From NCBI GenBank assembly GCA_000233775.1, contig CP003097.1, positions 1 through 31,872 on the forward strand: a DNA stretch of 31,872 bases, given 5' to 3'. Shown piece after piece: positions 4,154-17,446 of this stretch (the first letter of the stretch is position 1; each line of letters starts with the position of its first letter). A program made the translations under genes and the position numbers. Below the pieces are notes generated by a model. It saw only the letters and a program-made list of their open reading frames with translations, was not told the origin of the DNA and made no database searches. The stretch comes from Thermovirga lienii DSM 17291 (GTDB lineage: Bacteria > Synergistota > Synergistia > Synergistales > Thermovirgaceae).

Positions 4154-4201
4154 CCCCGTCAGAATAAAGAAGCGTTTTATAAAAAATTACATATATTTGC
4201 G

Positions 4202-4378
4202 CATCATTGGTGCCTTATCTTGCTCTGCAAGGTAGGCTTAAAAGGGAAGACCGGTGAGAATCCGGCGCGGTCCCGCCACTGTAACGGAGAGCGTGGTTGA
4301 GATATGCCACTGTCGCTTTAATGCGATGGGAAGGTTCAACCAAGCGATGACCCGGAGCCAGGAGACCTGCCAGTGATG
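4202..4378 (+). ncRNA. Cobalamin (adenosylcobalamin) riboswitch aptamer
   Basis: The B12-box consensus is unmistakable: AAAGGGAA near 4240, GGTGAGAATCC near 4253, GCGGTCCCGCCACTGTAA at about 4266-4284, and GAGCCAGGAGACCTGCC ending near 4371. A P1 stem forms between CATCATTGG (4202-4210) and CCAGTGATG (4370-4378), with a G-U pair. The expression platform runs from there to the terminator at 4458-4487 and holds an 11-base direct repeat, GGATGGTTGGT. Known cobalamin riboswitches of this layout switch expression off when B12 is abundant. The first gene downstream is a permease and not a B12 transporter or synthesis gene, which makes the regulon member unusual. Confidence 0.95.
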
Positions 4379-4457
4379 TAGAAGCACGCAAAACCACGAG
4401 GATGGTTGGTGCGGCAACGGGTGTCTACTTCGGACATCCGGATGGTTGGTTTTTACC

Positions 4458-4487
4458 AGTGCCCTCCTCAGTGGAGGGCACTTTTTT
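4458..4487 (+). terminator. Intrinsic terminator of the cobalamin riboswitch
   Basis: A 10-bp GC-rich stem (AGTGCCCTCC at 4458-4467 with GGAGGGCACT at 4473-4482), a 5-base loop and a run of six T form a textbook terminator. It lies between the aptamer and the ribosome binding site of the permease, so B12 binding is expected to end transcription here. Confidence 0.9.
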
Positions 4488-4508
4488 ATTCAAAAAGGGG
4501 GCGTAAAC

Positions 4509-4981
4509 ATGGGCTCTTCAAGTTGCATAGTTACCATTTTTCTGGTTGTAGTCGCTGCCTTTGCAGGTAACCACCTCGGTAAGCTAAACGTTGGGAAATT
4601 TAGTCTTGGGGAATCTGGTGCGTTGGTAGCAGGCATGACCTTGTCTCTTTTTCTAAGAAACTATTCCCTCTTGATACCCTCGTGGCTTATAAAGATAAGC
4701 CTCATATTTTTCATAGCTACAGTGGGTCTTATTGCAGGCAAAAAGATACAAACAGTAATTAAAAGCCACGGCTTCAAGTTCGCTCTTTTGGGTTTATCGA
4801 TAACGTTTATTGGCGCCTTAACCAGTTACATTGTTGTTCTTACACTACCAACTTTATCCAAAGGACATGCTGCAGGAACTTACGTAGGAGCTCTTACAAG
4901 CTCCCCTGGATTAGCCTCGGCCTTAGAATCCGCCACTGATTACGGAAAAATTATGGGATCAAACTACTCCGCTGACGTAGG
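4509..4981 (+). pseudogene. AspT/YidE-type permease, 5' part (interrupted by IS256)
   Basis: The N-terminal half of a membrane transporter of the aspartate:alanine exchanger (AAE/AspT/YidE/YbjL) family. Hydrophobic segments follow one another from residue 5 on. The family motif GALTSSPGLASALESA, followed by NYSADVG, sits at the break. The start ATG at 4509 follows an AAAAAGGGGG ribosome site just after the riboswitch terminator. Reading past 4981 enters the insertion sequence, adds about 19 unrelated residues and stops at 5039. Joining 4509-4981 to 6387-7104 gives 1191 bases, exactly 397 codons with no stop before the end. The gene was therefore intact before the insertion. The truncated product is unlikely to transport. 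Confidence 0.85.
4973..4981 (+). repeat. Target-site duplication of the second IS256, left copy
   Basis: TGACGTAGG here is repeated exactly at 6378-6386, directly flanking the element. IS256 elements duplicate 8-9 bases, so the true duplication is 8 or 9 of these bases. The perfect match argues for a fairly recent insertion. Confidence 0.9.
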
Positions 4982-6377
4982 GGTCAAGTCCAAATTTGTG
5001 TGTAAATTCCCTCTGGCAGATAAGATCACCCCGTTTTAAGCTACATTTACCTGGGTATCGGCATTATTCACCTCCTTCTGCTGTTTTTCTGTGTTAGCCT
5101 TCCACTCCCAATACTCTGCCATATCAAAGTAGCGCTTTCCTGTGGTCCACACCTCGTCGATCTCTACAAGCACTGCTCCGATCAGTCTCACAGCCGACTC
5201 CTCGTTAGGGAAGATTCGGATCACCCGCTCCCGCCGGCGGATCTCCTGGTTGAGCCGCTCGACTCCATTGGTGGTGCGCAGCCGCTTCCGGTAGCGCCCT
5301 GGTAGTGCCATCACCGCCATTGCGTCCTCGAAACCAGCTTCAAGTCGCTCTACCGCCTTTGGCGCCCGGGCGCCAAAGGCCTCTATCGTTTCGTTCAGCA
5401 ACCGCCTGGCCGTCTCCATATCCGGCGCGTCGAAGATCAACCGCAGTCGCCCGTGCAGGTCGCCCTGGAGGCTCTTAGGACAGGCGTCCAGGATGTTCCG
5501 GATAAAGTGGGTCTGGCACCGCTGCCATGTCGCTCCTTGGAAGTGGGTTTCTATCGCATTGATCAAGCCCTTGTGATCATCCGAAACAACCAAGTCCACT
5601 CCCTTGAGACCGCGCTCCTTGAGCCGGCCGAAGAACTCCGACCAAGCAGCCTCTGATTCGCTATCCCCGAGCATAAGCCCTAAAATCTCCCGGTATCCCT
5701 CCCGGTTGATCCCTGTAGCGAGAAGTACGCTTGAAAGCCGTACCCGGCCGCCTTTACGCACCCGGATGACAATGGCATCTACCAGGAGAAATGGGTATTC
5801 CTGGCTGCTCAAATCTCGCTCGTTCCACTCCTTTACGATGTCGTCCAGTCTTTTGCACAGGCTGGATACGGTGGATTTGGAGAACTCCGTGCCGCATAGT
5901 TCATCAACAACCGCCCTTACCTTCCTGGTGGATACGCCGTTCACGACCATCTCGACCATGGCCAGCAAGAGCGCCTGCTCGCTCCGCTGGTACCGCTCGA
6001 AAAGCTCCGTGGAGAAGTGCCCGCTCCGGAGACGGGGAACCATAAGCGTAAGTTCTCCTACGCGAGACTTGAGCAGCTTATCCCGATACCCGTTGCGGTA
6101 CCCCTGCCGCTCTTCGGTACGTTCGTATGGCTTGGCCCTGAGTTGTTCGGTAGCCTGAGCATCGAGTATCTGATTCACGATGTTCTCCACCAACCGAGCC
6201 AATCCATCATCCCGAATAAATAATCCTTGCAAGAGATCACAGTCTACGGTAACCTGGTAGTGAGCCATCTTTTCTCCCTCCTGATGATTAAGATTAAGCT
6301 ACTTCTTATCTACCAGAGGGAGGGGTGGCTCTCCTGCTTCAAGCCATCAATTTTACACCATCATAATGGACACTACT
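4982..6377 (-). mobile_element. IS256-family insertion sequence (complete, about 1.4 kb) inside the permease gene
   Basis: Both ends and the duplication are visible. The left end reads GGTCAAGTCCAAATTTGTG. The right end, reverse-complemented, reads AGTAGTGTCCATTATGATGG, and both then run into a GTGTAAA-TT motif, giving imperfect terminal inverted repeats. The element is inserted with its transposase antisense to the permease operon. Its GC content is clearly higher than the surrounding genes, which suggests arrival from a different genomic background. Confidence 0.93.
5036..6268 (-). CDS. IS256-family transposase (GC-rich variant)
   Basis: A 410-residue mutator-type DDE transposase. Motifs match the family and the element at 77-1300: QATEQLRAKPYERTEERQGY, first Asp in FLLVDAIVIRV, second Asp in VVSDDHKGL, the WQRCQTHFIRN block, and the Glu in TTNGVERLNQEIRRRERVI. 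The ATG is preceded by GGAGGGAGAAAAG. It is full length and uninterrupted, so probably functional. Codon third positions are much richer in G and C than in the flanking permease or CoA-transferase genes. Transcription runs opposite to the host operon. Confidence 0.95.
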   Translation of the reverse strand: MAHYQVTVDCDLLQGLFIRDDGLARLVENIVNQILDAQATEQLRAKPYERTEERQGYRNGYRDKLLKSRVGELTLMVPRLRSGHFSTELFERYQRSEQALLLAMVEMVVNGVSTRKVRAVVDELCGTEFSKSTVSSLCKRLDDIVKEWNERDLSSQEYPFLLVDAIVIRVRKGGRVRLSSVLLATGINREGYREILGLMLGDSESEAAWSEFFGRLKERGLKGVDLVVSDDHKGLINAIETHFQGATWQRCQTHFIRNILDACPKSLQGDLHGRLRLIFDAPDMETARRLLNETIEAFGARAPKAVERLEAGFEDAMAVMALPGRYRKRLRTTNGVERLNQEIRRRERVIRIFPNEESAVRLIGAVLVEIDEVWTTGKRYFDMAEYWEWKANTEKQQKEVNNADTQVNVA

Positions 6378-6386: not shown

Positions 6387-7104
6387 TATAGCATATGCTA
6401 TAAGCTATCCTATAGGAGTGTTACTGGTTATTCTTTCTACGAAATTACTGCCTCAAGTCTTCAACATAGGGACACAAAATAAAGAATTGACATCTTCTCA
6501 TGCCCTTGACGCAACTGCAGATATAACTGGAAACAAGCCTGTAAATATGCAAAAAGCAATTTCATTCGTTTTGAGTTTTGCTATATGCTGCGTTTTAGGC
6601 TACCTATTAGGCAATATTGCTCTCCCCTTATACAAAATAGGATATTTCAAATTGGGCACTACAGGTGGAGTCTTGCTATCCTCCTTGGCATTAGGATATC
6701 AAAGGAAAGTCTTCTTTTTGGATTTCAGGATTAATGAGAAAGTGCTTAATAAGGTTAGATCCTTATCCTTACTAATATTCCTAAGCTCCATAGGCCTTAA
6801 ATATGGAAGCCTATTTTTCAAAACGTTGAGCTTCAATCTAATTGGCATACTTTTTGCCTCCCTTGTAGCAGGAAGCATATCTATCCTTTTTGGTTTTTGG
6901 GTCGGGCATAGAATTTTCAAACTCGATTGGCCGTTATTGTTGGGAGCTCTCTGTGGAGGCATGACATCTACACCTGGTTTGGGAGCAGCAATAGAAGCAG
7001 TCAATAGCGATGAGCCTGTTTTAGGCTATGGGGCCACGTATCCTTTCGCTCTTTTCGGCATGGTGCTTTTTACCAAGATGATCTTTGTCTTGCCTGCTAT
7101 ATAA
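6387..7104 (+). pseudogene. AspT/YidE-type permease, 3' part
   Basis: The continuation of the transporter begun at 4509. In the restored frame the junction reads SADVGIAYAISYPIGVLLVI, a match to the AAE-family motif in which a GYAI-YP-G segment follows the LTSTP motif. The second half carries the duplicated version, GGMTSTPGLGAAIEAV and then LGYGATYPFALFG. The restored protein has 396 residues with two repeated membrane units, about half to two-thirds of a typical AspT and without its central soluble regions. A GTG at 6418 could start a fragment, but no clear ribosome site is seen. AAE relatives include AspT and the succinate exporter SucE of Corynebacterium; the substrate here is unproven, with succinate as a guess from the next gene. 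Confidence 0.85.
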
Positions 7105-8743: not shown

Positions 8744-10312
8744 TCATTCCGAAGCCAATATCTCTTCATAACACTCCCTAAATTTATCCAAAGTGCATTC
8801 CTCTATAACTACGGATTTCTCACCCTTTACAGGAAGGACAAGCCTTGATTTGCCGTTGGTAAATTTCTTATCCTTTTCTATGAACGGAGCTATTTGCTCC
8901 CAGGTCAAATGGGACTTCACTGGAAGGCCCAAACCCTTCAGCAGGCTTTTGAGCCTGTTCAAGGTCTCTTCGTCACAAAGTCCCAACCTGCACGATAGGG
9001 TCGTAGCCACTACCAAACCGACGGAGACTGCGTCCCCGTGACTCCACTGGTATCCCGAGGCGCTCTCTATGCCGTGGGCCACAGTATGGCCAAGGTTTAG
9101 GCGCATCCTCTCCCCTGTTTTTTCCTGCTCGTCCATTTTGACTATGCTCTGCTTTATCGCCACGCACCTTGCTATGACCTCCACGAGAAAATCCAAGTCT
9201 CGCCTGACGAGGGCTTCTCTGTTGTTCTCCAGCAGCTTGAAAAGCTCCCAGTCCTCACCTAGGCCGTACTTGACGATCTCCGCAAGTCCCTGTCTATAGT
9301 TGTCCCAAGACAGAGTCAAGAGGCACTTGACGTCCGCTACAACTGCCCTTGGCCTGTAAAAGGCTCCAACAAGGTTTTTACCAAAAGGAAGGTTTACCCC
9401 CACCTTTCCACCTATGGAGCTATCCACCTGAGCAAGAAGGGTGGTAGGGCACTGAACCAAATGCACACCGCGCATCCAGGTAGCAGCGGCAAAACCCGCC
9501 ACATCGCCCACGGAACCACCCCCTAGAGCTATTACGGTGCTTCCTCTGTCCAATCCTGCCTTGGCAAAGGCCTCATACAGTCCTTCCACATGCCTTAATG
9601 TCTTGGCCTCCTCACCTCTAGGCAGTATATAGAGCCCCTTCAGCGCCCCAAGCCTCCCTGAGAAAAAGGGACCGGAAAGCTCGTCGGCCACCACGAAAGG
9701 AAGATCCCCATCCCCCAACAAGCTCCTAAGCTTTTCTTCGCAGAGGATGCCTCTACCTATGAATATGCTGTCGTCTATTACCTCCTCAATTTTTGGAGCA
9801 TCTTCATCAGTCAAAAGTCCCAAGCTCAAAAGGACCTCGTCCAGGATCTCCCCCACTGTTTTTCCGTCGGTCTCTATATGTAGGTTGCCCCCTTCATATA
9901 TCTTCTGCCTCTCCCTCCAAAGTACCTCTACCTTTCCCTCGTCAAGCAATGGCCTTTTGCCCGGTTCGTTCTTCGCCCTTGCAATGGCCTCTTGTGGAGA
10001 AACTCCCAATATGACCAGGGTTCCTTCCTCCAGGATCTTACTCTTGAGGTCCTGATTCAAAAGGGTGCCCCCTCCAAGGGAGACAATGATATTGCCGGCA
10101 TCCAAAAGATCAAGCAGGGTCTTTTTCTCCAGCTCCCTGAAGTAGGCTTCTCCTCTTTTTTTAAATATCTCAGCTACAGCCATGCCCTCCCTCTGCTCTA
10201 TAAGAACGTCCAAATCAACGAAAGGCATACCCGTCCTCACGGATAAAGCCTTTCCCACCGTAGTTTTGCCTGCCGCCATGAACCCCCCTATGAATATGCT
10301 AGGCCTTTTCAT
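8744..10312 (-). CDS. aroKB: Bifunctional shikimate kinase / 3-dehydroquinate synthase
   Basis: A 522-residue fusion of two shikimate pathway enzymes. Residues 1 to about 165 are shikimate kinase: Walker A GGFMAAGKTTVG, FVDLDVLIE, GEAYFRELE, SLGGGTLL and the lid Arg in GKRPLL. The remainder is 3-dehydroquinate synthase: LGGGSVGDVAGFAAATWMRG, PTTLLAQVDSSIGGKVGVN, and the metal ligands in LAEIVKYG, NLGHTVAHG and SHGDAV. It catalyses steps 2 (DAHP to dehydroquinate) and 5 (shikimate phosphorylation). The ATG at 10312 is chosen because it follows GGGAGGAGAG and starts MKRPSIFIGG; it overlaps the end of aroC by 14 bases, implying coupled translation. An in-frame upstream codon at 10384 lacks this support. 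Such fusions are known, for example in Thermotoga. It is the last gene of the operon. Confidence 0.95.
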   Translation of the reverse strand: MKRPSIFIGGFMAAGKTTVGKALSVRTGMPFVDLDVLIEQREGMAVAEIFKKRGEAYFRELEKKTLLDLLDAGNIIVSLGGGTLLNQDLKSKILEEGTLVILGVSPQEAIARAKNEPGKRPLLDEGKVEVLWRERQKIYEGGNLHIETDGKTVGEILDEVLLSLGLLTDEDAPKIEEVIDDSIFIGRGILCEEKLRSLLGDGDLPFVVADELSGPFFSGRLGALKGLYILPRGEEAKTLRHVEGLYEAFAKAGLDRGSTVIALGGGSVGDVAGFAAATWMRGVHLVQCPTTLLAQVDSSIGGKVGVNLPFGKNLVGAFYRPRAVVADVKCLLTLSWDNYRQGLAEIVKYGLGEDWELFKLLENNREALVRRDLDFLVEVIARCVAIKQSIVKMDEQEKTGERMRLNLGHTVAHGIESASGYQWSHGDAVSVGLVVATTLSCRLGLCDEETLNRLKSLLKGLGLPVKSHLTWEQIAPFIEKDKKFTNGKSRLVLPVKGEKSVVIEECTLDKFRECYEEILASE

Positions 10313-11480
10313 CGTCTCTCCTCCCAACCCTACTAACATAGGAAGAAAAACGTTCTTGGACTTCCTCCAGGATATCTCCTCCAAATTGTTCCATTATGGC
10401 CTCCGCAATCACCCAGGACAGCATGGCCTCGGCTACTATCCTCGCGGCTGGAACGGCACACACGTCACTTCTTTCCCTGTGGGCAAAGGAAGCCTCCATC
10501 AGGTCCAAGCGAATCGAAGGCAGAGGCCTAGTGAGGGTGGGTATGGGCTTCATAAAGGCCCTTACAAGCACCTCTTCACCGTTGGTCATGCCTCCCTCTA
10601 TACCTCCGGCGCGGTTGGTCTCTCTTTTGATCCTTCCTTTTTCATCCATAAAAATGCCGTCGTGCACCTGACTGCCAGGAAGGTCTGCTAGTCGGCCCCC
10701 CTCTCCCACCTCCACTCCCTTTATGCCAGGAATGGCCATCATAGCTTGGGCTATCCTTCCATCCAACCTGCGGTCCCACTCCACGTAGGAGCCAACCCCA
10801 GGCGGAAGTCCTTTGACGGATACCACGAAAGCTCCCCCCAAGCTATCTCCTTCACTCATCGCCTCCCTTATCCTTTCTTTCAGCCTCTCCTCATCGGTTT
10901 GAAACACACAACCCAACGGCGAGTTGGAAGCAACATGCCATTCCTCCTCTTCAGAAGGTACTTTCACCGTCACTCCACCTACGCTTGTTACCGCGCTTCT
11001 AACTTCTATCCCCAAGCTTTCTATTAAAAGCCTGGCCAAGGTCCCCGCCACGGTCCACGCTGCGGTGGCCCTGGCGCTTGCTCTCTCAAGGACCGGCCGC
11101 ATGTTTTCATGGCCGTACTTCAACCCTCCTGGAAGATCTGCATGCCCAGGACGAGGACAATAAACGCTCTTTTCCTTCACTGCTTTGGGATCACAACTTT
11201 GTGGATCCATGGAGCTTCGCCACTCTTCCCACTCGCTGTTTTCAATGGTCAACCCGCATGGAGCACCAGTGGTTTTACCGTTCCAAATGCCGCCCCAGAT
11301 GGTAAGATGGTCTTTTTCTATCTTCATCCTGGCGCCTCGGCCATAACCCCGCCGTCTGCGCTCAAGCTCCTTTTCCAACCTTTCTATGGGTACTGAAAGC
11401 CCTGCAGGAAGGCCTTCCACTACCGTTATGAGCCCCCTGCCGTGGGATTCTCCGCTGGTGAGAAACCTCAAAATCCCCAT
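10299..11480 (-). CDS. aroC: Chorismate synthase
   Basis: A 393-residue enzyme that makes chorismate from 5-enolpyruvylshikimate-3-phosphate using reduced FMN. Family signatures in order: GESHGRGLITVVEGLPAG near the N-terminus, the basic RRRRGYGRGARM region, RASARATAAWTVAGTLA in the middle, and RSDVCAVPAARIVAEAM towards the C-terminus. The ATG at 11480, just behind AAAGGAGGAGGCG, begins MGILRFLTSGESHG. That matches the usual chorismate synthase start, so the longer frame reaching 11516 is rejected. It lies 19 bases after the aroE stop and overlaps aroKB. Confidence 0.96.
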   Translation of the reverse strand: MGILRFLTSGESHGRGLITVVEGLPAGLSVPIERLEKELERRRRGYGRGARMKIEKDHLTIWGGIWNGKTTGAPCGLTIENSEWEEWRSSMDPQSCDPKAVKEKSVYCPRPGHADLPGGLKYGHENMRPVLERASARATAAWTVAGTLARLLIESLGIEVRSAVTSVGGVTVKVPSEEEEWHVASNSPLGCVFQTDEERLKERIREAMSEGDSLGGAFVVSVKGLPPGVGSYVEWDRRLDGRIAQAMMAIPGIKGVEVGEGGRLADLPGSQVHDGIFMDEKGRIKRETNRAGGIEGGMTNGEEVLVRAFMKPIPTLTRPLPSIRLDLMEASFAHRERSDVCAVPAARIVAEAMLSWVIAEAIMEQFGGDILEEVQERFSSYVSRVGRRDDEKA

Positions 11481-11499
11481 CGCCTCCTCCTTTCTGGCC

Positions 11500-12339
11500 T
11501 CAAAGGCCAAGGGCACTGCGCATAGCGCAAACTTCCGGATTTATCCCCGTAAAAAGGCGAAAGGCCCACACTCCCTGCCGCAAGAGCACTTCCTCCCCTG
11601 GTACGTGCTTCAAATTCCTCCTCTTCGCCTCTTCTATCAGTTGAGTCGTGCCCCCTGGAAGATAAACTATGTCCAAAACTCCTTTTACATCCCATGAATC
11701 CAAAAACCTCTCCAGCAAACCCTTCGGCCACGGCACACTGGACATTCCCAAGGACGTGGCATTGATAAGAAGGCCTCCGGAAGAAACAGGAAGGTCTCCC
11801 CAAGGAAGGAATTGGAAGGGCCTTTCGGGGAAAAGTTCGTTCATCTTTTCGACCAAGGTTTTCCCACGATTTTCCATTCTGTTGGTTATCCAAACTCTCT
11901 TAAAGCCCCTCTTCCCCAGGGCGTAGGCCGAAGCCTTTGCCGCTCCGCCTGCTCCTAAGAGGAAGGCCTCCTTGTCTTCAGAAATCAAAGAATCAAGTAT
12001 CTCCTCTATGGCTATGACGTCCGTGTTGTACCCTAAAGCCTTCCCGTCTTTGAACAGGACGGTGTTCACTGCTCCAAGAGCCTTGGCTTCGGAGGTGGCC
12101 TCGTCCAGCAAGGTCAAAGCCGTTTCCTTATGGGGTACTGTTATGTTGCAACCTATAGCACCTAGACTCTTCAAGCCCTCCAGGGCGCCCTTCATATCTT
12201 CTTTTTTGACCTTAAAAGCCAAGTAGGCCATGTTCAGCCCCATCTTTGAAAACGCTGCGTTATGCATCGTTGGCGAAAGGCTGTGCTCCACTGGGTCCCC
12301 CAAAAGGGCCACCAGTTTGGTTTCAGCGTTTATATTCAA
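11500..12339 (-). CDS. aroE: Shikimate dehydrogenase (NADP)
   Basis: A 279-residue enzyme reducing 3-dehydroshikimate to shikimate. It shows the substrate pocket GDPVEHSLSPTMHN, the catalytic Lys in NITVPHKE, the catalytic Asp in GYNTD, the Rossmann loop GAGGAAKA, the NR motif ITNRMENR typical of NADP binding, and the closing QG in LLRQGVWAF. The start is TTG at 12339, with GAGGGGG about eight bases upstream inside aroA, and it overlaps aroA by 17 bases. Length is standard. Confidence 0.95.
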   Translation of the reverse strand: MNINAETKLVALLGDPVEHSLSPTMHNAAFSKMGLNMAYLAFKVKKEDMKGALEGLKSLGAIGCNITVPHKETALTLLDEATSEAKALGAVNTVLFKDGKALGYNTDVIAIEEILDSLISEDKEAFLLGAGGAAKASAYALGKRGFKRVWITNRMENRGKTLVEKMNELFPERPFQFLPWGDLPVSSGGLLINATSLGMSSVPWPKGLLERFLDSWDVKGVLDIVYLPGGTTQLIEEAKRRNLKHVPGEEVLLRQGVWAFRLFTGINPEVCAMRSALGL

Positions 12340-13639
12340 GGTCTTTTACCCCCTCTGAAAGCATGGACAGGTGATCGAAAAACTCTGGATAGGATATGCC
12401 AACACATTGGGCATCTTTCACTATTATCTCGTCTTGTGCAGCCAGGGCAGCTATGGAGAAGGTCATGGCGATCCTGTGGTCTTTTGAGCTTTCAACGCAA
12501 CCTCCTCCAAGAGGTGTAGGACCAGTTATAAAAAAGCCGTCCTCCAGCTCCTCCACGTCTGCTCCCAAGGCTCTGAGCCCCTTGGCCATTGAACTTATGC
12601 GGTCTGACTCCTTCACCCTCAGCTCCTCTGCATGGGTGATCTTGGTTACCCCGTGGGCCTGGGTAGCTATGAGGGCCAGCAATGGAAGCTCATCTATCAT
12701 GGTGGGAATTGCGTCTTTTTCCACCTCTATACCCTCAAGTTCCGAGTACCTAACCCTTATGTTGCCCACTGGTTCTCCGCCGGCAGACTCTTTTTCCTCT
12801 ATCTCTATGGAAGCCCCCATCTTTTTAAGGCATTCCAAAAAACCCGTCCTTGTGGGGTTTATCCCTACGTTTTCCAGCACTATATCTGAGCCCGGAACAA
12901 TGAGTGCCCCAGTTATCCAAAAGGCAGCGGAGGAGAAATCCCCAGGAACCCTTATAGAACACCCTGGAAGGTCGCTGCATGGATAAACCGTTATTCGATT
13001 ATCTTCCTGCCTCAGGGGCACTCCAATATGTCGCAAAAGTCTTTCCGAGTGGTCCCTGCTCTTGGCAGGCTCCACTACGGTCACGCTCCCGTGGGCGTTC
13101 AAGCCTGCTAGAATCAGGGCGGTCTTCACCTGAGCGCTGGCCATGGGAAGCTCAAAGGTTCCTCCCGAAAGGCAGCCCCCCCTTATGGAAAGAGGAAGGT
13201 AAGCTCCGCCCCCAGGCCCATCTATCCTTGCCCCTAAAGTCCTAAGAGGGGATACAACCCGCCCCATGGGCCTTTTTCGCAAGCTCTCATCGCCGGTTAT
13301 GACAGCAAAGACTCCTGGCGTGCCGGCCAAAAGGCCGCACAAAAGCCTGGCAGTGGTCCCTGAATTGCCAGCATCCAGGGGAGCTTTTATCTCCCCTGGA
13401 TTCATCCCCCTTCTTACCCTTACCTTGTCTCCAATTCTCTCCACTAGGCACCCTGCAAGCTCAAGACACCTGAGGGTGGAGGCACAATCTGCTCCAGAGG
13501 AGAAATTCTCTGCAGTTATGCCCTCAGAGGAAAGGGCTCCGAAGAAGCCCACCCTATGGGATATGGATTTATCCCCTGGGAGGGTCAAACGTCCTTTTAG
13601 CCCTCCCTCTGCGGGCCTTATTCTTACGTCATTGCTCAT
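12323..13639 (-). CDS. aroA: 3-phosphoshikimate 1-carboxyvinyltransferase (EPSP synthase), class II-like
   Basis: A 438-residue enzyme that adds the enolpyruvyl group of PEP to shikimate-3-phosphate. Motifs: LPGDKSISHR, DAGNSGTTARLL, RPMGRVV, SAQVKTALILAGL, SRDHSERLL, NPTRTGF, IPTMIDELPLLA, EELRVKESDRI and KDHRIAM. The set GDKS, SAQxK, RxHxE and NxTR is the pattern used to define class II EPSP synthases, many of which tolerate glyphosate. However, the Gly that is Ala in the most tolerant CP4 type is retained here (NSGTT). The ATG at 13639, preceded by GGGGTGATAGG, is preferred; a GTG at 13648 is an alternative. It overlaps tyrA by 11 bases. Confidence 0.95.
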   Translation of the reverse strand: MSNDVRIRPAEGGLKGRLTLPGDKSISHRVGFFGALSSEGITAENFSSGADCASTLRCLELAGCLVERIGDKVRVRRGMNPGEIKAPLDAGNSGTTARLLCGLLAGTPGVFAVITGDESLRKRPMGRVVSPLRTLGARIDGPGGGAYLPLSIRGGCLSGGTFELPMASAQVKTALILAGLNAHGSVTVVEPAKSRDHSERLLRHIGVPLRQEDNRITVYPCSDLPGCSIRVPGDFSSAAFWITGALIVPGSDIVLENVGINPTRTGFLECLKKMGASIEIEEKESAGGEPVGNIRVRYSELEGIEVEKDAIPTMIDELPLLALIATQAHGVTKITHAEELRVKESDRISSMAKGLRALGADVEELEDGFFITGPTPLGGGCVESSKDHRIAMTFSIAALAAQDEIIVKDAQCVGISYPEFFDHLSMLSEGVKDLEYKR

Positions 13640-14516
13640 CCCTATCACCCCTTTTGCTTACGCTCATGCCAAGGATCTTCTCCCTGCAGGACTTGGCCTT
13701 TTGCGCCATTTTAATGACTTCGTCAGTGCTTGAACCGGCTATTTCGCCCAGCAAAGACTCGGCCCGCAGGAGCAATGGCCTTATCAGATCCTGATTTTGC
13801 TCCCACATTTGGGCCACAAGCCAGGACGGTCCGCTGGAAAGCCTTGATGTATCCCTGAAGCCCCCGGAAGCCATAGAAAAAAGCCCCTCTAAATCCTTCA
13901 TCTGCTCTGCTGCCACAAGGGGTAGCACCATGGAAAGCAACATGGGAAAGTGACTCAGGCACGCCGCTGCCCTGTCGTGAGACAAAGGATCCATCCGGAG
14001 GCTTGAGCCTCCCAGAGCCGATGCTAGCTCCTCTGCGATCTCCACGACCTCTTCGGATGTGTGAGCAAAGGGCACCACGGCGCAGAGGGCTCCTTGGAAA
14101 AGGTCACAAGAGGCGTTATTTATCCCCCCATTTTCCCTGCCCGCCATGGGATGAAACCCCACGTACCTCTCCCGCCATAGTTCCGATAGTGCCCCTCCCA
14201 CTCTGCGCTTGGCACTTCCTGTATCCATTACGGCCTTGACGTTCCCGTTGGGGCAAAGGTACGCTTTTCCGCCTACGTCCACTATCTCCCCAGCTGGAAC
14301 AGCTATCACAAGGACATCCGAAGATGAAACGAGTTCTTCCAACGTACCGTCCCCGTTGTCTATAAAGCCTCTCTCTTTGGCAAACTTCATCACTTCTTCG
14401 TCAACGTCCCAACCTGAAACCTTCCTCGCTCCTCCACGAGTCTTCAATGCACAAGCTATGGATCCTCCTATAAGGCCGAGACCTACGATACCTACATGGC
14501 AATCCTTAAGCCGCAT
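13629..14516 (-). CDS. tyrA: Prephenate dehydrogenase
   Basis: A 295-residue NAD(P)-dependent enzyme that converts prephenate to 4-hydroxyphenylpyruvate, the tyrosine-specific branch after chorismate. Seen: dinucleotide-binding GLGLIGGS, VMDTGSAKRRV, the substrate motif YVGFHPMAGRENGG, HDRAAACLSHFPMLLS and SGGFRDTSRL. There is no ACT domain and no fused chorismate mutase, so it is a short form without its own Tyr-binding domain. The ATG at 14516 sits behind GAGGAGGTT and overlaps the end of aroF by 25 bases. It is the only branch-specific gene in the operon; chorismate mutase and pheA are not in the window. Confidence 0.94.
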   Translation of the reverse strand: MRLKDCHVGIVGLGLIGGSIACALKTRGGARKVSGWDVDEEVMKFAKERGFIDNGDGTLEELVSSSDVLVIAVPAGEIVDVGGKAYLCPNGNVKAVMDTGSAKRRVGGALSELWRERYVGFHPMAGRENGGINNASCDLFQGALCAVVPFAHTSEEVVEIAEELASALGGSSLRMDPLSHDRAAACLSHFPMLLSMVLPLVAAEQMKDLEGLFSMASGGFRDTSRLSSGPSWLVAQMWEQNQDLIRPLLLRAESLLGEIAGSSTDEVIKMAQKAKSCREKILGMSVSKRGDRDEQ

Positions 14517-15535
14517 GGTGCTTTAACCTCCTCGTCCAGGACGCTACACAACCTGTTTACGCTCTCCATCAGATCACCGAACTCCTCCAGAGTAAGGCTT
14601 TGGGCTCCATCGGAAAGGGCCTCATGGGGTCTTGGATGGACTTCTATCATGAGTCCATCGGCCCCGGCAGCCATGGCTGCCATGCTCATGGGTTTTATAA
14701 GCTCCTTGCGCCCTGTTCCATGGCTCGGATCTACGATGACGGGAAGGTGGCTAATGGATTTGACCAGTGGAACCACACTAAGATCCAGCGTGTTCCTGGT
14801 GCTGGTGTCGAAGCTTCTTATGCCTCTTTCACACAAGATAACCTTGTGGTTGCCTCCTGCCAGTATGTATTCTGCCGCCTGAAGCCACTCATCCACGGTG
14901 GCCATCATCCCTCTCTTGAGCAATACTGGCTTTCTGGTACGGCCTACTGCCTTGAGAAGGGCAAAGTTCATCATGTTCCTGGCCCCTATCTGAAGTATGT
15001 CCACGTGGGGTTCCAGCCACTCCAGGTCCTCAGGAGACATTATCTCTGTGACTATGGGAAGGCCTGTCTTTTCTTTTGCCTCCACCAAAAGATTTATTCC
15101 CTCGCTGCCAAGGCCTTGAAAGGAGTAGGGGTTGGTCCTGGGCTTGAAGGCCCCTCCCCTTAGAACATTGGCACCTAATGTCTTGACACCTGATGCGGTC
15201 TCCAATATCTGGGATCGGCTCTCCACTGAACAGGGTCCGGCCATTATAAGTCTGTGGCCGCCGCCTACCTTTATGTCCTCGGTTATGTGGAAAACGTTGT
15301 CATCAGGGAAGGTCTCTCTGGAAGCCAGCGGATAGGGTTTTTTCGTGGAAGTTACAGTCTTCACGCCTGGAAGGGATAGAACCAGGTTACCCACTTTTTC
15401 ACAGCCGTTTGAAACGATGTAGGGAGACTCAAAAGACCCTACAACCCTCAAACTGCAACCTCTTCGCTCCAGGAAATCACAAACTCGCGCCACCTCTAAG
15501 CTCTTACAACCTCTTGCCATGTGAATAACCAACAT
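14492..15535 (-). CDS. aroF: 3-deoxy-7-phosphoheptulonate (DAHP) synthase, type I-beta with N-terminal ferredoxin-like domain
   Basis: A 347-residue first enzyme of the shikimate pathway, condensing PEP and erythrose-4-phosphate. The N-terminal 70 or so residues form the small ferredoxin-like domain known to mediate Tyr/Phe feedback in Thermotoga DAHP synthase. The barrel follows: MAGPCSVES, RGGAFKPRTNPYSFQGLG, QIGARNMMNF, LLKRGMMAT, CERGIRSFDTSTRNTLDLS, IVDPSHGTGRKEL, and IEVHPRPHEALSDGAQSL. The ATG at 15535 follows AGGAGGTAGAGGAGA. It is the first structural gene of the operon, about 25 bases behind an attenuator terminator. Expression and probably activity are therefore both tied to aromatic amino acid supply. 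Confidence 0.95.
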   Translation of the reverse strand: MLVIHMARGCKSLEVARVCDFLERRGCSLRVVGSFESPYIVSNGCEKVGNLVLSLPGVKTVTSTKKPYPLASRETFPDDNVFHITEDIKVGGGHRLIMAGPCSVESRSQILETASGVKTLGANVLRGGAFKPRTNPYSFQGLGSEGINLLVEAKEKTGLPIVTEIMSPEDLEWLEPHVDILQIGARNMMNFALLKAVGRTRKPVLLKRGMMATVDEWLQAAEYILAGGNHKVILCERGIRSFDTSTRNTLDLSVVPLVKSISHLPVIVDPSHGTGRKELIKPMSMAAMAAGADGLMIEVHPRPHEALSDGAQSLTLEEFGDLMESVNRLCSVLDEEVKAPCGLRIAM

Positions 15536-15559: not shown

Positions 15560-15600
15560 AAAAAAGCCGGAACGGGATGTGGAAATCCCGTTCCGGCTTT
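15560..15600 (-). terminator. Attenuator terminator in the aro operon leader
   Basis: On the minus strand, arms 15600-15586 (AAAGCCGGAACGGGA) and 15577-15563 form a perfect 15-bp stem with an 8-base loop, followed by TTTTTT at 15565-15560. It sits between the promoter and the first structural gene, so it must be bypassed for the operon to be expressed. The 5' arm plus loop (15598-15579) is largely complementary to leader segment 15686-15667, including an unbroken 10-base GTGGAAATCC match. That provides a mutually exclusive antiterminator. Confidence 0.92.
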
Positions 15601-15630
15601 GATTTACTTTGATTCTTCTTTAGAGTCCCC

Positions 15631-15795
15631 TTAGACGGAGCCTGTCACTCCTTCGGGGGCTAAAAGAGCCTCGGACGGATTTCCACGTGGTGACTGGCCA
15701 CTGGCGTAGTAAAAGCGCCACTGGCCGCTGGTAAAGCCGAAATAATAGGACTGGCTATCAAAGAGGGCAACGTTTCCTAGATTTAGGCTTCTCAT
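15631..15795 (-). CDS. Aromatic-rich leader peptide of the aro operon attenuator
   Basis: A 54-residue open frame starting ATG at 15795, behind AGGAAAGGAGAGCC, and ending TAA at 15631. Residues 12-30 contain nine aromatic residues in nineteen: Phe12, Tyr17, Tyr18, Phe19, Phe21, Trp26, Phe28, Tyr29, Tyr30 (SYYFGF and WRFYY can be read directly). This is the mark of a transcription attenuation leader: ribosomes stalling for charged Phe, Tyr or Trp tRNA would expose codons 37-43, which pair with the terminator 5' arm. It is longer than classical trp or phe leaders and appears to sense three amino acids at once. No known named family is claimed. Confidence 0.85.
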   Translation of the reverse strand: MRSLNLGNVALFDSQSYYFGFTSGQWRFYYASGQSPRGNPSEALLAPEGVTGSV

Positions 15796-15857
15796 ATCCG
15801 TCTGGCTCTCCTTTCCTTTTGTTTTGCGACTTAACTTCGTATAGATATTGGTAAGTT

Positions 15858-15885
15858 ATTTTAGACATTATTTCCCATTTGTCAA
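15858..15885 (-). promoter_or_regulatory. Promoter of the aro operon
   Basis: On the minus strand, TTGACA at 15885-15880 is followed after 16 bases by TAAAAT at 15863-15858. The start would be near 15851, giving a 5' untranslated stretch of about 55 bases before the leader peptide. The insertion sequence at about 15930-17250 lies directly upstream. Confidence 0.7.
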
Positions 15886-15899
15886 TATTGAATCCTCTT

Positions 15900-17250
15900 T
15901 TATTTGTAGATGAGCCTATATTTCGTTCCGTCTACTTTGGTAAAGTGAAAGAGATAATGGAAAAGGCGGGTACCTCTCCTTTATACTGGTGCTGCAACAA
16001 CAACCAAAACAAAGGAAAAAGGAGGTAACCCGCCATGACTTCATTATACCAGCGACTAAAGGAATCAGGGAATCCCAAAGCCCCTATGGAAGTTATATGC
16101 GACTTGATAGAAAAAGGTAAAACAGCCAAAGAAATAGCTAACATCATGGGAATTACTGAAAGATGGGTTAGAACATTGATGAAACGGAAAAAGATGGCCT
16201 ATCTGCCAAAGAATTATTGCACAAAAAAGGTCCCAGATCCCCTCATCCAAAAAGAACTAAACCTCACATCGAAGCTTTGGTTATTGAAACTCAACAGAAA
16301 ACCAACATGGGTCCTAGAAGACTTGCAAGAGAGCTGAAAAGAACCCTCAATCTGAATATATCTTCCTACACCATCAGAAACATCTTACGCAGAAACAACG
16401 TTAAAACTAAAAAAGTACGTTCTAGAAACGGAAATAAACGCTACTATGCCAACCTAAACCACTGGGAAGCCCTACAATACTTCCAGATCGATTCAAAACA
16501 TATAGCAGACGCAAAGACTCTCCCACCAAAAGCATATGCTGCCCTGTTTAAATACAGGCTTCCCAAATACCAATTTACCGCTATCGATATCAAAACAAGA
16601 ATGAGAATCTTATGCTTCTCCGATGAATGCTCTTTCGCAAATGGCTTCTCCTTCATACTTTACATCGCCTTCCTCATGCGGGCTTTGGGCATCAGACATA
16701 GAATGTTCTTCCAAACTGACAACGGGAGCGAATTCGGCGGATCTGAAGAAAGCAGAAAAAGAAAAATATTGCAGGAAAAATTCCTAGAACCCTTAGGCGT
16801 TACTCTCCTCTCCATACCAAAAGGAGAAAAAGAAGCCCAAGGTTTTGTGGAACGAAGTCATCGCACCGATGATGAGGAATTCTACATACCTGCACTACCT
16901 CACATAACATCCCGAAAGGTCTTTATGACTTCTGCCGCAAGCTGGGTAAAATATTACAATCAAAAACGATCTCATGGAGGCAGAGATATGAACGGGAAAA
17001 CTCCAAAGGAAAAAATATTTGAACTCTCACTAGTCAGTTCTAAAGCCGCTACTTCCATACCCCCTATACTCTTGGACAAAGTAAACACCTTTATACTAAA
17101 AATGGTGGGAGCTCAAAACATCTCCTGGGACTCCCACCATCTCCTTCAACTAATTAAACGGAAGCAATTTGTGGCCCCTTACAACCCCCGGGCTAATTTG
17201 GGGTTTCTAAAATCTCGCAAAGTAAATAAAATCGATTTAGCTCCCCTCAA
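15900..17250 (+). mobile_element. Two-frame DDE insertion sequence (IS3/IS481-like), ends not resolved
   Basis: Two overlapping frames encode a helix-turn-helix part and an rve/DDE part. I could not find convincing terminal inverted repeats or a target duplication. Short similarities such as CTACTTTGG near 15937 and CAAAGTAAAT near 17217 are too weak to fix the ends. A 10-bp stem (17102-17111 with 17131-17140) lies near the 3' part of the frame. The boundaries given are approximate. Confidence 0.6.
16035..16337 (+). CDS. Transposase N-terminal frame (OrfA-like, helix-turn-helix)
   Basis: A 100-residue frame starting ATG after GGAGGTAACCCGCC. Residues 20-50 (MEVICDLIEKGKTAKEIANI, then GITERWVRTLM) form a helix-turn-helix that would bind element ends. 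From 16172 on, the -1 frame is also open and carries the sequence that continues into the DDE domain. The A-AAA-AAG heptamer at 16223-16229 lies in the right phase to shift ribosomes into it. After about residue 52 this frame looks like filler (MAYLPKNYCTKK). So it is either the normal short product of a frameshifting element or the result of a one-base deletion. Confidence 0.7.
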   Translation: MTSLYQRLKESGNPKAPMEVICDLIEKGKTAKEIANIMGITERWVRTLMKRKKMAYLPKNYCTKKVPDPLIQKELNLTSKLWLLKLNRKPTWVLEDLQES

Positions 17251-17446
17251 CAAAAAGGGGCTTTGGGTTAACCCAAAGCCCCTTTTTATCATCAACTATT
17301 TTCAACTATACGGAAAACTCTCTGTATGCGTTTCTTGCAGCACCGCAGACTGGGCACTTTTCCGGTGGTTCCTCCTCTGCTGTATGGCCGCAGACTGGAC
17401 AAATGTAAATCTTATCTGCAGAGTAGTCTTCTCCCTTCTCTGCTAG
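16217..17446 (+). CDS. Transposase DDE frame (OrfB-like), read by -1 frameshift
   Basis: A second frame, about 400 residues from the TTG at 16217 and open back to 16172. It has a second helix-turn-helix (MGPRRLARELKRT, SYTIRNILRRNNV) and an rve-type catalytic core: Asp in FQIDSKHIA, Asp in FFQTDNGSEFGG, Glu in QGFVERSHRTDDEE, then WVKYYNQKRSHGG. The second Asp to Glu spacing is about 43 residues, longer than the usual 35. The frame has no stop of its own at the expected place: it reads through a terminator palindrome at 17252-17287 and ends inside the rubrerythrin gene on the other strand. The final 60 or so residues are probably not native. IS3 versus IS481 assignment is open. Confidence 0.75.
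   Translation: MHKKGPRSPHPKRTKPHIEALVIETQQKTNMGPRRLARELKRTLNLNISSYTIRNILRRNNVKTKKVRSRNGNKRYYANLNHWEALQYFQIDSKHIADAKTLPPKAYAALFKYRLPKYQFTAIDIKTRMRILCFSDECSFANGFSFILYIAFLMRALGIRHRMFFQTDNGSEFGGSEESRKRKILQEKFLEPLGVTLLSIPKGEKEAQGFVERSHRTDDEEFYIPALPHITSRKVFMTSAASWVKYYNQKRSHGGRDMNGKTPKEKIFELSLVSSKAATSIPPILLDKVNTFILKMVGAQNISWDSHHLLQLIKRKQFVAPYNPRANLGFLKSRKVNKIDLAPLNKKGLWVNPKPLFIINYFQLYGKLSVCVSCSTADWALFRWFLLCCMAADWTNVNLICRVVFSLLC
17252..17287. terminator. Perfect 36-base palindromic terminator downstream of rubrerythrin
   Basis: The sequence is its own reverse complement, with arms AAAAAGGGGCTTTGGGTT and AACCCAAAGCCCCTTTTT. It gives a strong hairpin with a T-run on both strands. It would end transcription of the rubrerythrin gene (stop at 17306, minus strand) and also any plus-strand transcript leaving the insertion sequence. 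Confidence 0.88.

Follow-up and report, generated by a model that had tools for sequence, protein, structure and literature searches.

A predicted ribosome-mediated attenuator upstream of shikimate pathway genes in Thermovirga lienii and other Synergistota

The shikimate operon and leader region of T. lienii

The window considered here, by which we mean the whole stretch of DNA that was analysed, is the entire 31,872-bp second contig of the two-contig genome of Thermovirga lienii, and it carries a shikimate operon on its minus strand. Between the promoter and the first controlled gene, aroF, lies a leader region with an open reading frame that had never been annotated before. The features of the locus, in the order in which they would be transcribed, are the following.

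15858 to 15885, minus strand: sigma-70 type promoter of the leader transcript, TTGACA-16-TAAAAT, 11 of 12 matches
15796 to 15810, minus strand: segment 1, the Shine-Dalgarno sequence and spacer of the leader, GAGAGCC-A-GACGGAU, 5' strand of helix P1
15631 to 15795, minus strand: leader peptide ORF, 54 codons, nine of them aromatic
15733 to 15747, minus strand: first aromatic codon cluster, Tyr17 Tyr18 Phe19 Gly20 Phe21
15696 to 15726, minus strand: hairpin H, arms GGCCAGUGGCG and CGCCAGUGGCC, loop with Phe28 Tyr29 Tyr30; candidate RNA polymerase pause hairpin
15666 to 15687, minus strand: segment 2, the antiterminator strand CGUGGAAAUCCGUCCGAGGCUC, codons RGNPSEA
15664 to 15680, minus strand: 3' strand of P1, AUCCGUC-CGA-GGCUCUU, overlapping segment 2
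15579 to 15601, minus strand: segment 3, the terminator 5' arm and loop, partner of segment 2
15560 to 15600, minus strand: intrinsic terminator, a 16-pair stem (15600-15563) and then U6
14492 to 15535, minus strand: aroF, DAHP synthase (PF00793) with an N-terminal extension, first controlled gene
13629 to 14516, minus strand: tyrA, prephenate dehydrogenase
12323 to 13648, minus strand: aroA, EPSP synthase
11500 to 12339, minus strand: aroE, shikimate dehydrogenase
10299 to 11516, minus strand: aroC, chorismate synthase
8744 to 10384, minus strand: aroK-aroB fusion, shikimate kinase and dehydroquinate synthase

The leader peptide (54 residues, 15795-15631, minus strand) reads MRSLNLGNVALFDSQSYYFGFTSGQWRFYYASGQSPRGNPSEALLAPEGVTGSV, and its aromatic residues are F12, Y17, Y18, F19, F21, W26, F28, Y29 and Y30. 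A preliminary description of this DNA had recorded this frame, with its four Tyr, four Phe and one Trp at positions 12-30, and had placed a good promoter before it; both are present as described, and the promoter element TTGACAAAT is also seen 5' of the leader in five relatives (L035, L049, L051, L060 and L061). The same description gave the terminator as a 15-bp stem with six T, of which the terminator and its U6 stand, whereas the stem has 16 pairs; terminator-like sites numbered four, as against 0.5 in shuffled sequences. The region thus contains a leader ORF with a ribosome site between the promoter and the first gene, a cluster of end-product codons, for Phe and Tyr, that is kept in frame, and an intrinsic terminator before the first structural gene, all of them parts expected of a ribosome-mediated attenuator of an amino acid operon. 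Rfam returned no match to the leader at the gathering score, the only hits in the window being a cobalamin and a molybdenum cofactor riboswitch elsewhere, and the leader matched neither the T-box nor any other Rfam family except by weak hits below threshold. One of the candidates set aside, ncr1175 (27 bits, gathering score 60), covers the terminator hairpin only.

The surroundings of the operon contain several other features of interest. An insertion element (16035-17446) begins ~150 bp upstream of the attenuator promoter, and ORFs closely related to it are found at ~323,406-324,620 of the chromosome. The cobalamin riboswitch (4191-4388) precedes a permease (PF06826) that is recognizable in two domain pieces, 4446-5039 and 6418-7104, with a Mutator-family transposase (5036-6268) between them on the opposite strand, and the permease gene has probably been split by insertion. 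The molybdenum cofactor riboswitch (1441-1559) lies upstream of a response regulator and a gene of the aldehyde dehydrogenase family. Pfam scans of the larger ORFs of the contig revealed no replication gene, its ends do not overlap, and no plasmid record matched the window in a search from which records of its own genome may be excluded; the contig is a putative plasmid at most.

Occurrence of the leader and its reading frame in the Synergistota

A protein search with the 54-residue leader found a match of 75% identity in a genome of the same genus and further matches in genomes of many families (E 1e-9 to 1e-3), nearly always a few hundred bases upstream of a match to AroF. The core of the leader was present in all 30 AroF upstream regions that were read, including those missed by the protein search (one of the 30, L048, is cut by a contig end). 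With a first covariance model of the core, Synergistota genomes gave matches to the element at E below 1e-9, and second copies came to light; a second model, built to include the aroA-type and aroE-type copies, found 47 loci in 38 of 185 Synergistota genomes, representing all ten families of the order, with no matches between E 6.7e-10 and 9.5e-4. The element precedes aroF at 37 of these loci, aroA-aroC-aroK at eight and aroE at two, and the separate aroA-aroC-aroK copies (eight genomes) and aroE copies (two genomes) occur where the operon is split. Genomes in which the AroF match starts near residue 50 or later were without an aroF leader match, and since several genomes that have the N-terminal part of AroF were also without it, the leader is not universal.

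In family f3 (L245, L246, L253; G057, G066) the shikimate operon is split between two sites, each with an attenuator of its own; at the first, aroF adjoins a match to the aroK-aroB fusion, and at the second, aroA-aroC is accompanied by a second match to that fusion. Weak matches to the model (G012, G033, G065, G163 and G102; E 1e-3 to 0.05) were rejected as being without the layout of leader and terminator, the best of them lying apparently inside a coding gene, possibly uppS. Viral contigs scanned with a DNA pattern of 14 specified bases gave at least 120 stretches, which were taken as chance.

The reading frame is open in all 44 leaders that could be parsed, each of which has a start codon with a Shine-Dalgarno sequence, and clusters of Phe and Tyr codons, always in the leader frame, are found in all 44 at a fixed relation to H. 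Across 21 lineages the in-frame fraction of aromatic codons is 18.2%, compared with 7.7% and 9.7% in the other two frames, which hold 30 and 39 stops. The situation changes downstream of the aromatic codons, which precede the frame changes of the leaders: segment 2 falls in phase 2 of the frame in 34 leaders, in phase 1 in nine (L035 and L037 of family f4, L019 of family f7 and most aroA types) and in phase 0 in one (L216). Its being read in all three frames means that selection acts there on the structure of the RNA and not on the sequence of the peptide. The conserved parts of the peptide correspond to pairing segments, GQWR and ASG being the two arms of H and RGNP with xSA being segment 2, and their residues change where the pairing is kept (GQWR to GLWL, DQGY or DRWY; RGNP to RRDP, YGDR or RENR).

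The preliminary description had proposed combined sensing of Tyr, Phe and Trp. For Phe and Tyr the proposal is supported. Trp is represented by a single UGG codon, which occurs in every aroF-type leader and is also part of the H stem in the aroF and aroE types; as this codon doubles as a piece of H, and most aroA-type leaders have no Trp codon in H, Trp is no more than a candidate for sensing.

Alternative pairings of the leader RNA

Segment 2, whose consensus is GUGGAAAUCCG-nnn-UCGGCU (codons RGNPxSA), forms a duplex of -19 to -33 kcal/mol with AGCCGG-aac-CGGAUUUCCAC, which makes up the complete 5' arm and loop of the terminator. In T. lienii 15687-15666 pairs with 15601-15579 through 17 pairs at -24.9 kcal/mol; the complementarity first noticed there, of 15667-15686 with 15579-15598, is real, but the antiterminator extends over the whole terminator 5' arm. 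Cognate pairings average -25.1 kcal/mol and permuted ones -20.4 kcal/mol (p about 5e-5 by permutation), and the variation is compensated, with 11 CG and ten GC pairs at offset 19 and nine CG, six UA and five UG pairs at offset 17. The antiterminator, which is mutually exclusive with the terminator, is thus supported by covariation.

The pairing that might hide segment 2 from the terminator arm had been regarded as doubtful in the preliminary description, with an aside that the leader ribosome site could be involved, and it is the aside that was borne out. In an unbiased scan for partners of segment 2 across each leader (21 lineages), the strongest pairing fell in one sharp peak, located +3 from the leader start codon (mean z -2.46), so that segment 2 pairs, in the helix that we call P1, with the leader's own Shine-Dalgarno and start region. 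The cognate mean is -22.0 kcal/mol, compared with -17.5 kcal/mol for permuted partners (p about 5e-5), and the effect is just as strong when the set is restricted to aroF leaders or to a single sequence from each family (n=10), the latter a reduction that lessens, and does not remove, the effect of kinship among the related lineages used in the pairing tests. The T. lienii helix joins 15810-15796 with 15680-15664 at -22.4 kcal/mol; weak P1 helices are found in f10, f7g11 and a single aroE leader. As control partners of segment 2, the aroF (main-gene) start site, upstream sequence and the stop region were all not significant, and codons 7-17 were borderline (p 0.03-0.08). Two other candidates were tried and dropped: the bases after segment 2 were negative as a P1 partner (p 0.25), the scan then pointing to segment 2 itself, and the segment with the aromatic codons, CUUUACC, was judged by eye not to covary with segment 2 or with the pre-terminator bases as a pairing partner. 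The pairing that frees or hides segment 2 as the position of the ribosome changes would accordingly be P1, located atypically at the leader start site, with dynamics that we infer.

Hairpin H has Tyr and Phe codons in its loop and is kept with differing arm sequences, GGCCAGUGGCG and CGCCAGUGGCC in aroF leaders, GACCAGGG and CCCCUGGUC in aroA leaders, GACCGUUGG and CCGACGGUC in aroE leaders, and with GGCCAGUGGC and GCCAGUGGCC also among the arm pairs. Changes on both sides are seen in six of its ten pairs, and 89.5% of cells pair, compared with 21-54% in slid registers. Among aroF leaders only, with one per family, the case for H is weak (p 0.065), and a strong one requires the paralogs. The length of H varies from 26 to 34 nt overall (28, 31 or 34 in aroF types and 27, 30 or 33 in most aroA types), mostly by whole codons in the loop, and the spacer between H and segment 2 is constant despite this, at exactly 10 nt in most leaders. 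This constancy suggests that H may serve in pausing of RNA polymerase; a U at position 11 could equally serve the antiterminator or a polymerase pause.

A proposed mechanism and its relation to known attenuators

We consider that the element is, with a probability of roughly 80%, a ribosome-mediated transcription attenuator that gauges how far Phe and Tyr tRNAs are charged and governs entry into the shikimate pathway. This had been the central proposal of the preliminary description, and it is supported in relatives, whose aroF upstream regions retain the frame, the aromatic codons and the competing, covarying stems. Segment 2 would have two mutually exclusive partners, the leader start site in P1 and the terminator 5' arm. 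Termination would be the default: when the leader is not translated, or after a ribosome has passed freely, P1 together with H would hold segment 2, the terminator would form, and transcription would end before aroF. Under a shortage of charged Phe or Tyr tRNA, the leading ribosome would stall at the aromatic cluster or at the Tyr and Phe codons of the H loop, while stalled and queued ribosomes might keep the start site occupied and segment 2 free, and the free segment 2 would capture the emerging terminator 5' arm and permit read-through into aroF. A pause of RNA polymerase at H may allow the first ribosome to catch up.

The T. lienii leader was folded with and without a ribosome in place, as the preliminary description had suggested. 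Before segment 3 exists the structure of minimum free energy (MFE) is P1 plus H; when segment 3 has emerged but segment 4 has not, placing the ribosome at Tyr18 or Tyr29 yields the antiterminator and placing it at the stop codon yields P1; and the complete transcript folds with the terminator. Between the start of segment 2 and the leader stop codon there are 34-74 nt, so that in most leaders a ribosome at the stop codon leaves segment 2 uncovered. Masking of the kind that operates in trp can therefore not serve as the principal off switch; the off state would then rest on P1. In a transcript that carries no ribosome and ends after segment 3, the MFE structure has the antiterminator in place of P1, which implies that P1 would have to win kinetically or be helped by a ribosome at the stop codon. 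A kinetic off state in the absence of translation is the weakest step of the proposed mechanism.

Other explanations can be considered in the light of the same observations. Because P1 joins the start site to segment 2 and covaries, regulation might act mainly through leader initiation or ribosome supply, with the aromatic codons playing a minor part; the presence of aromatic clusters at a fixed relation to H in every leader, and the fact that all of the targets are aromatic biosynthesis genes, make this highly unlikely in our view. The strong conservation of primary sequence in the core of H and segment 2, next to an expression platform of the terminator type, might instead suggest a riboswitch that binds an aromatic amino acid or a shikimate intermediate, to which the ORF would be incidental. 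An incidental ORF is difficult to reconcile with a start codon and Shine-Dalgarno sequence in each leader, a frame open in 44 of 44, an aromatic codon content about twice that of the stop-containing alternative frames and an H loop that varies mostly by whole codons. In addition, the whole core is replaceable, as in the aroA and aroE types, so long as the pairing and the Tyr codons remain, and Rfam offered no match at the gathering score; we give a riboswitch very little credence.

The unusual conservation of the peptide core for an attenuator leader could also be taken to mean that the peptide itself (GQWRYYYASG) arrests the ribosome in the presence of an aromatic metabolite. Such arrest calls for peptide conservation that is independent of RNA pairing, and what was found is conservation that tracks base pairing, with residues changing along with compensatory nucleotides. 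The phase of segment 2 differs among lineages, so that the downstream peptide is not conserved, and the aromatic codons precede the frame changes; of the explanations weighed here, nascent-peptide arrest seems to us the least credible. With attenuation by Phe and Tyr tRNA charging as the preferred reading, we also lean, with less assurance, toward regarding the Synergistota elements as a start-site-gated class of attenuator, in which the Shine-Dalgarno and start region is the "protector" strand of the antiterminator, so that a single element could combine the response to Phe and Tyr tRNA charging with one to leader initiation and the queueing of ribosomes, and of which every part of the pathway (aroF, aroA-aroC-aroK and aroE) may have received a copy as the operon broke up.

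In common with the E. coli pheA, trp and his leaders (the Yanofsky type), the Synergistota element has a leader peptide rich in codons for the product, a terminator, an antiterminator and a competing pairing. It differs from them in that segment 1 is the leader ribosome-binding site rather than the segment with the regulatory codons, that the stop codon lies beyond segment 2, and that codons for Phe are mingled with codons for Tyr. In trp, too, the leader RNA may occlude the trpL ribosome site.

The preliminary description had held that the controlled genes set this leader apart from the classical ones; attenuation at a DAHP synthase gene is not unprecedented. The aroR-aroF system of Corynebacterium glutamicum has a leader peptide with Phe-Tyr-Phe and is reported to respond to Phe limitation by ribosome-stalling attenuation (PMC11802643, PMC4046766). 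As far as the available portions of these reports go, it shares with the Synergistota element a leader peptide before an aroF (DAHP synthase) operon and differs in its phylum, its much shorter aromatic run and the reported lack of a Tyr response (PMC11802643, PMC4046766); those portions describe neither a hairpin with codons in its loop nor a start-site helix, the comparison being one of gene association and codon content only. In Acholeplasma, the candidate uORFC-13-1 has one or more Phe codons just upstream of a terminator at aroF (PMC8632094). By its description it differs in being confined to Acholeplasma and environmental sequences, and all that is described of it is a U run that codes for at least one Phe (PMC8632094). 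Stav et al. (2019) screened five genomes, including the T. lienii chromosome NC_016148.1, and their Fig. 6b presents two unnamed candidate uORFs at shikimate genes with F and Y, for which the text, in the parts drawn on here, names neither genomes nor genes (PMC6429828). Since the present locus is on the second contig and not on the chromosome, it may not have been part of that screen. Relative to these portions of the earlier reports, what appears to be new is an element found across the phylum, its copies where operons are split, the placing of aromatic codons in the loop of a hairpin, and an antiterminator gated by the start site.

The element would be the clearest case known to us of a phylum-wide attenuator for the common trunk of the shikimate pathway rather than for a terminal branch, and it suggests for attenuator logic in general that a default-off pairing can be supplied by the leader's own ribosome-binding site. 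That it has been kept on each fragment where the pathway is split, while its helices have changed completely, amounts to an unusually clean natural experiment in covariation, and the element gives a regulatory annotation to organisms whose RNA regulation has hardly been studied.

Elsewhere in the genome (G000:C1:318878-318973; L227, L229, L254), another aromatic leader of simpler build, MARAQKLQRTIYVDGFYFYYFTGVGPPQRFDA, with a GGCCGGGGUCCCC terminator after it, lies upstream of a phenylacetate-CoA-ligase-like gene with AMP-binding domains. Relatives of this second leader (L255-L259 and L262), with the ending YYFTGVGPP..ADA and the GUGGGACCCCC/GGGGUCCC pairing, recur in families f1 and f8, and salvage of aryl acids is possibly also under aromatic attenuation.
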